From Bacteroidota bacterium (GTDB lineage Bacteria; Bacteroidota; Ignavibacteria; Kapaibacteriales; NICIL-2), in assembly GCA_019695345.1 (NCBI GenBank), contig JAIBAE010000046.1, positions 1 to 34,577 of the forward strand: 34,577 nt of DNA. The letters are read 5' to 3'. Below, piece by piece: positions 1,502-34,577 of this stretch. The position numbers and the translations under genes were made by a program. How positions within the stretch are numbered: position 1 is the stretch's first letter; each line of letters opens with the position of its first letter. The notes below the pieces were generated by a model that was not told where the DNA came from, did no database searches, and worked only from the letters and a program-made list of their open reading frames with translations.

Positions 1502-1503
1502 TT

Positions 1504-1569
1504 TTTGCTAACGCCGGACGGCGCCGCATGTTGTTGTAATCAACACACCATCATCTGCCGAAGAGAACC
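1504..1569 (-). repeat. Intergenic repeat copy F
   Basis: The core at 1504-1514 is TTTGCTAACGC, one mismatch from the inverted consensus, and starts two bases after the MFS stop codon. The box (on minus, GGTTCTCTTCGGCA) is at 1556-1569. The box TTCTCT starts 53 nt from the core, as in the other copies. GCCG (1557-1560) can pair with CGGC (1519-1522). Confidence 0.65.
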
Positions 1570-1591
1570 TTTGGCTTATTCTTTCACCTCT

Positions 1592-3618: not shown

Positions 3619-3771
3619 TTCCCCGCCTCTGCCGAAGCAACCGTGCCAGCGCGGCAACCCGGTCCGAGCCAACCGTTGTGCGGCGCGGGGGAAAATTCTC
3701 TCCGGCAAGTGGTTGGTTGGGTTGGTGGAAATGGTGCGGTGCCGTCATGCGATAGCAAAAAATACTACCGT
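3619..3771 (+). repeat. Intergenic repeat copy A (long form)
   Basis: The left end, TTCCCCGCCTCTGCCGAAGC (3619-3638), is shared exactly with copy B. It is followed by a shared stretch with CGGCAACCC and GTCCGAGCCAA. Then come the box TTCTCTCCGGCA (3696-3707) and the exact core GCGATAGCAAA (3749-3759). CGGCA (3703-3707) can pair with TGCCG (3740-3744). The tail CTACCGTAC (3765-3773) runs into the end of the glycosyltransferase gene and is also present after copy D. Confidence 0.85.
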
Positions 3772-7957: not shown

Positions 7958-8367
7958 GCTGTTATGTACACAGTTATAATTATCTGCTATCGCCCGACGG
8001 CACCAAACCTTAGTTAAGCTACATCCTTACTCTGCCGGATTGAGCCTTGGATTACAGTTCATCACGTTTATACGATAACCCTGAATTTGGAAGTACATTG
8101 TTTTGTTCTGCAGTAACAAGGTGCGGCGCTTTATACCCGTTGGGTGCGGTCTGCGTAAGCAGAAAACATAGAACAACATACAAACAGTAAGAACTAAATA
8201 GCGTTAACAAATGTTCCTTGGTGGAATAAAACATCATAAGATTATGACAGAACTAATATAAAATATTTGCTCTATCGGAAAAATATGATAATTTTCGGAG
8301 AATGCTACAATTCTCTCTTGTTGTTATACCATATACTCTATCACTTGGATAAGGTAATCTTTACTGC
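7958..8367. other. Divergent intergenic region
   Basis: This 410-nt gap separates the divergent membrane-protein and RodZ-like genes and must hold promoters for both. It contains repeat copy C (7983-8050). An open frame on minus at 8052-8237 (61 codons) has a hydrophobic N-terminal stretch like a signal peptide, but it has no homologue I recognise and no strong ribosome site, so I do not call it a gene. A small hairpin (GAGAAT 8298-8303 with ATTCTC 8310-8315) precedes the RodZ-like gene. Confidence 0.5.
7983..8050 (-). repeat. Intergenic repeat copy C
   Basis: The core at 7983-7993 (TCTGCTATCGC) has one mismatch to the inverted consensus. The degenerate box (plus strand TGCCGGATTGAGCC) is at 8033-8046. 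Core-to-box spacing is about 51 nt. CGGCA (7998-8002) can pair with TGCCG (8033-8037). The core points left, towards the operon 3765-7957, opposite copy A at the operon's other end. Confidence 0.7.
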
Positions 8368-18675: not shown

Positions 18676-18708
18676 CCGGTCACGATACACCAAAATTCCA
18701 TCCGGCAA

Positions 18709-18780
18709 GGTTCTCTCCGGCATTGTGATTGGTGTTTGAACAGCTATTGTTTGGTGCCGATTGCGATAGCAAACACTACC
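18709..18780 (+). repeat. Intergenic repeat copy D
   Basis: The box TTCTCTCCGGCA (18711-18722) and exact core GCGATAGCAAA (18763-18773) are 52 nt apart. CGGCA (18718-18722) can pair with TGCCG (18755-18759). CTACCGTAC after the core overlaps the last codons of metH, exactly as copy A does with the glycosyltransferase gene. Confidence 0.85.
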
Positions 18781-20666: not shown

Positions 20667-20728
20667 TCTGCTTCGCAAGCGGCTCCAACCAACAGTTTTT
20701 GTAAAACCTCCAACTGCCGGAAAGAACC
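20667..20728 (-). repeat. Intergenic repeat copy G (degenerate)
   Basis: On minus the sequence reads GGTTCTTTCCGGCA (box, 20715-20728), then TTGGAGCCGCTTGCGAAGCA, clearly related to TTGGTGCCGATTGCGATAGCA of copy D. Spacing is about 50 nt. CGGC (20680-20683) can pair with GCCG (20716-20719). The copy forms most of the leader of metH. Confidence 0.6.
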
Positions 20729-20765
20729 TCTCAATTCTAAGAACATCTATCGTGATAGTATATTT

Positions 20766-25195: not shown

Positions 25196-25196
25196 G

Positions 25197-25354
25197 TTTG
25201 CTATCGCCTGACGGCACCTTACAACAGTTCTCAGAATACCCGCCACTTGCCGGGCAGTACCTTTCACGATTTACGCACGTTTAAAGCTATCGGTTTTATC
25301 TGCACAATAAGGATGTGTCTAGCAAAACATTCGGTGCAGTCCCGCGATAGCAAA
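25197..25354. mobile_element. Complete MITE-like element, repeat copy E
   Basis: This 158-bp element is bounded by inverted repeats 25197-25218 and 25333-25354 that match at 19 of 22 positions. The outermost 11 (TTTGCTATCGC / GCGATAGCAAA) are identical. The left half also has the family box (TGCCGGGCAGTACC, 25248-25261) at the standard spacing and CGGCA (25212-25216) able to pair with TGCCG (25248-25252). There is no coding sequence of its own. I see no convincing target-site duplication. Confidence 0.8.
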
Positions 25355-25412
25355 AACTTAGCAACATGAAACTGTTTTGTGCGTTATATTGTGTACCAAC
25401 TACGGAGGTTCT

Positions 25413-28960: not shown

Positions 28961-29102
28961 TTCCCCGCCTCTGCCGAAGCGAAGCATACTGCTCGGCAAC
29001 CCTGTCCGAGCCAAACGGTGTGCGGCGCAAGATGGGGCTTGTATCCGCACCGCACACATATTGGATTTGCACTGACGCAAGGCGCGGTCAGGCGATAGCA
29101 AA
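28961..29102 (+). repeat. Intergenic repeat copy B (long form)
   Basis: TTCCCCGCCTCTGCCGAAGC (28961-28980) is identical to the left end of copy A. CGGCAACCC and GTCCGAGCCAA follow in the same order. The exact core GCGATAGCAAA is at 29092-29102. The middle differs from A and the TTCTCTCC box is not present, so the copies are mosaic. Confidence 0.85.
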
Positions 29103-29452
29103 ACATTAATTCAATACAACAGATGATATAAAGGGCTAACCATTCTTGTACTGAATTAATGCCCGGCACTAAGGGCGCCCAAAGTGCCGGCACACTAACA
29201 ACAAACAACAAAGAACTGACCAACAAGAAGTTTCATTGAAGTGATACACAATGAAATTCTTGATGCGAACTTATGGGGATTATTCTATGGAAAAAAGATA
29301 GGAATTGATTGTAATCTAAATCTGACACTTTGCAGATTTACCGGATGTGTAGTCTATACAAATGTTTGATTTTTTAATTTTTTCAAACATTTCGATAAAA
29401 GTAGTGATAGATTTTCTGATAGAAATTGATAGGACTGGTACGATAATACTGT
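29103..29452. ncRNA. Intergenic region with four hairpins; possible structured RNA
   Basis: Four inverted repeats lie in a row: 29105-29119 with 29146-29160 (14 of 15); 29163-29170 with 29183-29190 (8 bp, loop containing GGGCGCCC); 29224-29238 with 29249-29262 (14 bp, one bulge); and 29360-29369 with 29383-29392 (10 bp, T-rich loop). The one mismatch in the first becomes a G-U pair if the minus strand is the RNA. No gene is supported here. Candidates are a 3'UTR or terminator cluster of the converging genes, or a small RNA. Confidence 0.35.
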
Positions 29453-30997: not shown

Positions 30998-31080
30998 ACA
31001 ACACGCACATTAGTTAAGGGACATCAGTAGCAGAACGCAAATTACATTCAAACTCCAAAACAATATATCAGGAATTATTT

Positions 31081-31145
31081 TCTGCTAACGCATTGCCGCT
31101 CCGTACGGCATACACATCACAACCTTCCCTTGCGGGAGAGAGAAA
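31081..31145 (-). repeat. Intergenic repeat copy H
   Basis: The core (TCTGCTAACGC, 31081-31091) has two mismatches. The box on minus reads TTTCTCTCTCCCGCA (31131-31145), with an extra CT; core spacing is about 51-53 nt. The box CCGC form is matched by GCGG near the core (plus-strand 31096-31099 with 31132-31135), so pairing is kept although the bases differ from copies A and D. Confidence 0.65.
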
Positions 31146-33083: not shown

Positions 33084-33268
33084 AACTCGTAATAATACAC
33101 ACCATTGGGTAATGATTCAGTGTTTATTAACCACCACAAGTATTCTAAGTCCCCTAATGCACACTATCGTGCGTCATGTTCGATACTCAGAACAGCCGGC
33201 TAAACACAACACAACTAACAGAAACAATCCAACCATCACTCACGGTTATGGTTGTGCATTAATGAACG

Positions 33269-33330
33269 TTCTCTCCCGCAGAACAACGCTTTACAATGCT
33301 GGCGGTTTGGTGCGGACTTGCGATAGCAAA
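33269..33330 (+). repeat. Intergenic repeat copy K
   Basis: The box TTCTCTCCCGCA (33269-33280) and exact core GCGATAGCAAA (33320-33330) are 51 nt apart. The stem is CCGCA (33276-33280) with TGCGG (33311-33315), a compensated change relative to CGGCA/TGCCG in other copies. ACTATCG near 33168 could be a decayed left inverted repeat, giving an element of about 165 bp. The core end abuts the malic enzyme stop codon. Confidence 0.8.
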
Positions 33331-33333
33331 TGA

Positions 33334-34577
33334 TTATTCCAAATGTGTTGCAAACAATGCTTTCACACGCTCTATTACTGTTTCGTGAACTTTAGGGTTA
33401 AACGGACTTGGCACTAACTCGTAGGGCTCGGCTTGTTCTGCAATGGCAGTGGCGGCGGCTATTTTCATTTCGCTGGTAATCTTCTCGGCGCGTACTTCTA
33501 TTGCCGCGCGGAATAGCCCCGGATACGCCAACGCATTGTTTACACTTTTACCATCGGCGGCAAATGCAGCTCCGGCATCCAAAGCATCTTCGGGCATTAT
33601 TTCGGGCACAGGATTACTCAACGCAAAAATGATTTGCCCGGGTTTGATGTGTTCTTTTGTTATTAAGCCAACTCTGCCTGTTGTTGCAATTACTACATCG
33701 GCATTCATAGCTTCCTCGAAGCTGGAGATTGTACCGCCAACATCAAGCAAACGTTTGTGTGCCGATTCGTTGGGGTCGAACGCGGTTACAGTAAAGCCAT
33801 AATCAATCAGCAATTTTGCAATGGCAAATCCGGCAGCACCTAAGCCAAGTTGTGCAAACACTAACGATTTATCTCCGTAGCGGTTTACTTTTTTTAACGC
33901 GTTTAATACTGCGGCAAGTAATACGGTAGCTGTGCCGTGTTGGTCGTCGTGCATTACAGGTTTGTTCAAGCGTTTAATCAGCTCGTCTTCTATGTAAAAG
34001 CAATCGGGCGTGCGGATATCTTCTAAGTGAATTCCCCCAAATCCAACCGATACTTTTTCTACAATGTTTATAAACTCGTCGGGGTCTTTGGTGTTAATCA
34101 AAACAGGCATTGCACTAAGCCCCACAAACTGATTATACAGCATTGCCTTGCCTTCCATAACCGGCATCGAGGCAAGCGGACCAATATCGCCCAAGCCAAG
34201 CACGCGCGTTCCGTTGGTAAAAATGCCAACCATGTTACTAATGGAGGTGTAATCGCGGGCAAGGTCGGGGTTTTGCTGAATAGCTTTACATACACGTGCA
34301 ACACCGGGCGTATAAACGTAGCGCAAATCGCTTACACCTTCTACCTGGCGTGTACCTACAATCTTAATCTTTCCGTTTTTGTGATGTTCAAAAACAACAT
34401 CTTTTATTTCTATAATCTCGGCGTGGGTGCGCTCTTGTATGGCGCGTTCAATGGTACCCAAATGCGGAAGGTCGTACACAGAAACTACCAACTCGCGCAA
34501 CACATGGTCATGCCCAACTAACAAGGTTTTTACATCGCCAATCAAACCACCTTCTTCACCAATTACGGTGGTTAGTT
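33334..34577 (-). CDS. NAD(P)-dependent malic enzyme with N-terminal ACT domain (5'-truncated by window)
   Basis: The enzyme oxidatively decarboxylates malate to pyruvate and links the citrate cycle to pyruvate. At least 413 residues are visible and the frame stays open to the window edge. The upstream codons read [14 protein letters not shown], an ACT-domain start, so the real start lies outside. An ACT-like segment is followed by the malic N-domain ([58 protein letters not shown]). The NAD domain comes next ([15 protein letters not shown]) with [10 protein letters not shown]. An ACT domain suggests allosteric control by an amino acid. The cofactor preference is not clear. No phosphotransacetylase domain is fused; the protein ends at residue LE. 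Confidence 0.95.

Follow-up and report, generated by a model that had tools for sequence, protein, structure and literature searches.

Hundreds of natural variants of one short repeat, all within a single genome assigned to the Bacteroidota, show base-pair compensation in a stem, together with avoidance of cross-pairing where two halves of the repeat form a pair. These two properties suggest that a single-stranded folded form matters. We read the family as probably a REP-like mobile repeat, dispersed and non-autonomous, in which each end folds by itself as single strand. Such variants make the single-stranded form used by a REP-like element testable with simple mutants. Should the mobiliser prove not to be a Y1 protein, the family would also point to a mode of short-repeat spread that has not been described. 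The repeat was recognised in a contig of 34,577 nucleotides, hereafter the window.

Compensatory changes in the repeat stem

The first-pass annotation of the window had claimed that the two arms of the stem change together, and that the repeat works in a folded, single-stranded form. The covariation is confirmed, and is stronger than had been put forward. Arms remain complementary in the copies despite their changes: in the half-unit at 33259-33330, CCGCA pairs with TGCGG across 30 nt; CGGCA faces NGCCG in the copies at 1503, 3692, 7983, 18706, 20673 and 25197, and CCGCA faces NGCGG in those at 29038, 31080 and 33259. Three runs of the covariation test proposed in that annotation, by mutual information, on an independent data set and by a structure-pair count, all agree. 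In an alignment built from sequence alone, without structure, the central stem column pair carries 1.06 bits of mutual information, and the next pair of any kind 0.28. Within data outside the profile building, the central pair is C-G in 216 copies, G-C in 98, T-A in 13 and other in 6, being 98% Watson-Crick. The structure-pair score is 0.236 versus 0.054 in shuffles (0/500), with slid controls at ≤0.051. Arms varying independently would leave 43% of copies with all four inner pairs Watson-Crick, whereas 91% (442/486) were observed. The outermost pair is also double-changed, from C-G to G-C, A-T and T-A, the covariation comprising two stem pairs and four pair types, and RNAalifold recovers the same stem unaided.

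Nearest neighbours at 60-80% identity share their stem type at a frequency of 0.50-0.58, versus 0.51 expected. Stem type tracks the remaining sequence only in copies at least 80% identical, and a neighbour that close exists for only 46/474 copies. Since stem type varies independently of the other positions, the double changes arose many times; between nearest copies the loops differ at 47-61% of sites while the stems stay intact. A founder effect, in which two old subfamilies had come to differ at both columns without selection on pairing, would fit the C-G and G-C types making up most copies, but we leave it almost no probability, since the nearest-neighbour test rules it out as the cause of the covariation, T-A, A-T and second-pair changes are also found, and both types occur inside the hairpin-loop subfamily and in a sister genus. 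Single halves have DNA folding energies close to those of shuffles or only a little below them, so the stem would be weak unless bound.

Organisation and copy number

Our sample covers 2.06 Mb of the host genome, 45% of the total, taken in stretches. A sequence profile matched 594 half-units in it, which extrapolates roughly to 1,300 genome-wide; the reversed control of the newly read 1.29 Mb gave 2 profile matches. In each half-unit a box (TTCTYTC-CSGCA) is followed by a loop of some 30 nt, which leads to an arm (GG-TGCSG) and then to the core, GCGATAGCAAA; the foot beyond the arm reads TC, N, K, then GCGATAGC. The core has 190+192 exact occurrences (382) in the genome versus 2+3 (5) for its backward control, and 9 matches at up to one mismatch in the window versus 0.57 expected. 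It can form a GC-GNNA-GC mini-hairpin, GC[GATA]GC being predicted by RNAalifold; the core loops are GATA in 316, GTTA in 84 and GGTA in 33, the remainder being other GNNA or GNA.

Elements take the form of a lone half or of an outward-facing inverted pair of 110-380 bp, and the sample holds 94 such pairs and 406 singles. Adjacent halves no more than 420 bp apart face outward, other orientations being rare. Two thirds of the halves are single, without a hidden partner: a search for decayed partners beside single halves found none (25 versus 36 on the control side). Pairwise identity is 0.570 among paired and 0.583 among single halves, core conservation is 0.95 for singles versus 0.94 for paired halves, and the stem is intact in 0.90 and 0.96, respectively. 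The central motif ACGATAACCGT occurs in 34/94 pair middles and on 87/406 upstream sides of singles, against 14/406 in the control. An internal hairpin is present in some subfamilies only. One half subfamily has the loop hairpin GCCcTGC-N6-GCAaGGC (L039 1742-1808, L043 4944-5010, L043 8544-8610 and relatives), and another has GGGCAGAAAATTTTCTGCCC.

Eleven half-units were matched by the profile in the window. The one that the first-pass annotation had singled out (33259..33330, + strand) is of the G-C type, with its left arm at 33276..33280 (+), its right arm at 33311..33315 (+) and its core, where a GC-GATA-GC mini-hairpin is possible, at 33320..33330 (+); this core stops 3 nt short of the TAA that ends the gene at 33334-34545 (-). 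A full, heterotypic inverted-pair element lies at 25197..25355, its left half CGGCA/TGCCG and its right half, at 25286, a third stem type, CTGCA/TGCAG. A second inverted-pair element, at 7983..8164, has CGGCA/TGCCG on the left and CTGCA/TGCGG, with one mismatch, on the right. Half-units of the C-G type are found at 1503..1573 (-), with the core 2 nt past the stop codon of the gene at 158-1501, at 3692..3760 (+) and 18706..18773 (+), with a stop codon 5 and 2 nt from the core, respectively, and at 20673..20731 (-), where the match covers the core incompletely. Those at 29038..29103 (+; CCGCA/CGCGG) and 31080..31142 (-; CCGCA/AGCGG) are of the G-C type.

Rfam gave no match in the window at gathering score. 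The STAXI RNA was rejected as a candidate: its length fits 25196-25352, but it scored 12.5 bits versus the 40.5 needed and was absent from two other copies tested. A second dispersed repeat (TTCCCCGCCTCTGCCGAAGC...) lies at 3619-3686 and 28961-29028; it has 122 core matches in the 2.06 Mb, only 21 of them lying close to half-units of the main family, and its internal triplets look correlated, GCC going with CGG, and GCG with GCG or CCG.

Paired halves carry non-matching stems

Central stem pairs of paired halves were different in 30 cases and the same in 8 in the first data, versus 81 and 80 for other neighbours; the new data gave 36 and 11, versus 85 and 131 (Fisher P=4e-6). Among pairs of the 150-200 bp class, 42/48 are heterotypic. 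Only stem columns 18 and 56 among the columns tested avoid matching (z of -4.3 and -4.2; next -2.3), and arm cross-complementarity within pairs is 0.167, versus a null of 0.315 (sd 0.037), with 0/5000 shuffles as low. Because the halves are inverted copies, identical stems would permit one long element hairpin. The unequal stems favour two local hairpins; with the stems of a pair kept non-identical, each half pairs internally rather than with the other half. This within-pair heterotypy is new, and the contrast it makes with REPINs is the most surprising result of our analysis. Palindrome instability is unlikely to lie behind it, as comparable avoidance appears at no column outside the stem, and fixed left and right end lineages are ruled out, the types barely differing elsewhere.

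The repeated covariation, the heterotypic stems and the core mini-hairpin together support well the folded single strand that had been proposed, although they do not distinguish RNA from ssDNA.

Comparison with REP elements and known single-strand systems

The likeness to REP sequences that had been pointed out holds for placement and organisation, but not for tag, loop length, matching of halves or decay of singles. Like REPs, REPINs and BIMEs, the repeat is intergenic and of high copy number, occurs as singles and inverted doublets with stop codons a few nucleotides away, separates convergent genes by a single doublet, and would act as a folded single strand. In sharp contrast, the GTAG/GTGG tag of the REP foot is absent, and a 5-bp stem with a loop of about 30 nt replaces the 2-5 nt loop of the REP palindrome. 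In REPINs the two REPs pair mutually (PMC3116915), joining the halves into one long hairpin, whereas the pairs here are heterotypic, with cross-complementarity below chance. Singles of REPINs are more decayed than doublets, whereas singles here are as conserved as paired halves. Given that neither cross-pairing nor the tag was found, we file the repeat as REP-like, not as a REPIN.

For the same reasons, the repeat is unlikely to be a canonical REP/REPIN family mobilised by a RAYT (Y1 HUH) transposase that the host genome encodes: the tag is missing, the loop is 30 nt long, the halves are kept unable to pair together and the singles are well conserved. That reading would account for the dispersed intergenic singles and inverted doublets and for convergent genes often being split stop-to-stop by one element. 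Y1_Tnp matches do exist in the host genome, at three loci, and one such gene (C123:46025) sits between two outward-facing halves 1.1 kb apart; moreover, RAYT subclass 2.6 of Bacteroidetes has been linked to atypical secondary structures (PMC6006769). Yet the intact Y1 genes are flanked by their own, different repeats or palindromes, and the sister genome in which the family occurs (91% complete) yielded no detectable Y1_Tnp. Whereas REPs go with RAYT/TnpA-REP, no cognate Y1 transposase could be assigned to this repeat. The RAYT on C55 was rejected as owner, being flanked by its own palindromes in few copies. An autonomous copy was likewise rejected, as the genes between outward-facing cores look, by eye, like ordinary host proteins with no recurrent transposase. 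We observed a Y1 transposase gene (206 aa) that is nested between two outward-facing halves of the main repeat and has its own short-repeat arrays, tagctacGGAGTAGC... and ctccGATGGAGcttcgag (L031 1240-1400, 1900-2230), and a RAYT-like gene (181 aa) with the palindromes GTCAGGTGTTACACCTGAC and GGTCAGTTGTAACAACTGACC in few copies (L033 1130-1230 and 1800-1890).

Other systems resemble the repeat in part. To our knowledge, no transposase is known for the CGTC-tagged REPs, which share high copy number and the lack of a known dedicated transposase with the present family; a CGTC string arises in copies of the C-G type, but it is not a constant tag here, as its first C is a variable paired stem base. 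The ends of IS200/IS605 elements, where a Y1 transposase cuts at tetranucleotides under guidance of the hairpin foot, are comparable by analogy only, in that end-proximal hairpins are read as single strand; their hairpins are short, their two ends are not inverted copies, and no such element ends were found here. Integron attC sites likewise combine diverse sequence with conserved structure directly after stop codons, but form a one-direction array, whereas copies of the present repeat are scattered across the sampled contigs in both orientations.

Placement among genes

With gene ends taken from a simple ORF caller, which carries some error, 74/134 stop-facing halves have their core 0-9 nt from the stop codon. 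Stop codons within 16 nt are TAA in 52 cases, TAG in 32 and TGA in 1. A second group is placed exactly in the T-tract of intrinsic terminators, and 8/13 pairs between convergent genes span the gap from stop to stop, leaving ≤8 nt on either side. Some 40% of the halves point towards start codons, and 37/192 units lie between divergent genes. Convergent genes split stop-to-stop by one element have been described for REPs (PMC3733652), so the placement is not new in itself.

This placement would suit a host RNA element, one acting as a bidirectional terminator, in 3'-end signalling or in mRNA stability and selected copy by copy, which would also explain stems staying intact while the loops of nearest copies diverge. 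Few close relatives yet kept stems also fit a host function acting on resident copies. We nevertheless hold such an element to be quite unlikely, given the halves facing start codons and the units between divergent genes, the many copies that follow an existing intrinsic terminator, and the failure to detect the repeat in six relatives from another genus of the same family. Copies stand in all orientations relative to genes, divergent gaps included, and for this reason we prefer ssDNA over RNA as the folded form.

Mobility

Two recent duplicate pairs terminate exactly at the outer cores, so the inverted pair appears to move or duplicate as a unit, and single halves of one hairpin-loop subfamily occupy different loci. 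Copy number, private distribution and these few recent duplicates are the basis on which we take the repeat to be mobile. The searches found no empty site, target duplication or mobiliser, the target duplication having been looked for by eye in a few recent copies. We also considered a double-stranded MITE bounded by the terminal inverted repeats TTTGCTATCGC and moved by a DDE transposase, with the stem pairing incidental. It would match the outer 11 bp that form the inverted ends of pairs and at which recent duplicates stop, but it is very improbable: it gives strict base-pair covariation and heterotypy no role, two thirds of the halves are single without a hidden partner, and no target duplication was seen in the recent copies inspected by eye.

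For the REP-like mobile repeat that we favour, the working form would be single-stranded, most likely DNA that replication or excision leaves exposed. Each end would fold alone and be read by a putative single-strand enzyme supplying mobility in trans. Insertions would persist mainly in gene-end niches, after stop codons and in terminator T-tracts, where they may do least harm, and might later affect mRNA 3' ends. More tentatively, and with doubt outweighing belief, the family may represent a kind of mobile repeat separate from REPINs, with mutually orthogonal inverted ends under selection, each folding alone as single strand, with GNA/GNNA tip mini-hairpins and a non-Y1 single-strand enzyme.

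Distribution and the sister genus

We counted 362 occurrences of the 17-base pattern TGCSGTCNNGCGATAGC here, whereas none of 394 other genomes of the phylum had more than one. With a covariance model, 12 matches at E≤0.001 (best 2e-9) revealed a related family in G002, which represents one sister genus; the other 19 relatives, among them the six from another genus of the same family, gave no match. The full-length pattern was absent from 84,980 species, a collection that may omit the host genome and near relatives, and the repeat was not found in viral contigs. Among the genomes searched, copies are thus confined to the host lineage and a single sister genus.

The sister-genus elements have the same stem and loop and a different left part. 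Their core is mostly GCGAAGC, with the variants GCGTAAGC and GCC-GAA-GGC; d(GCGAAGC) is an extraordinarily stable DNA mini-hairpin. The G002 elements (L157-L167) have in common the left part GGTATTcTTGGAAGCGcAACGCAAGAACGCTTGGG, which may form the hairpin AAGCG..CGCTT; this part was not noticed in the window genome.
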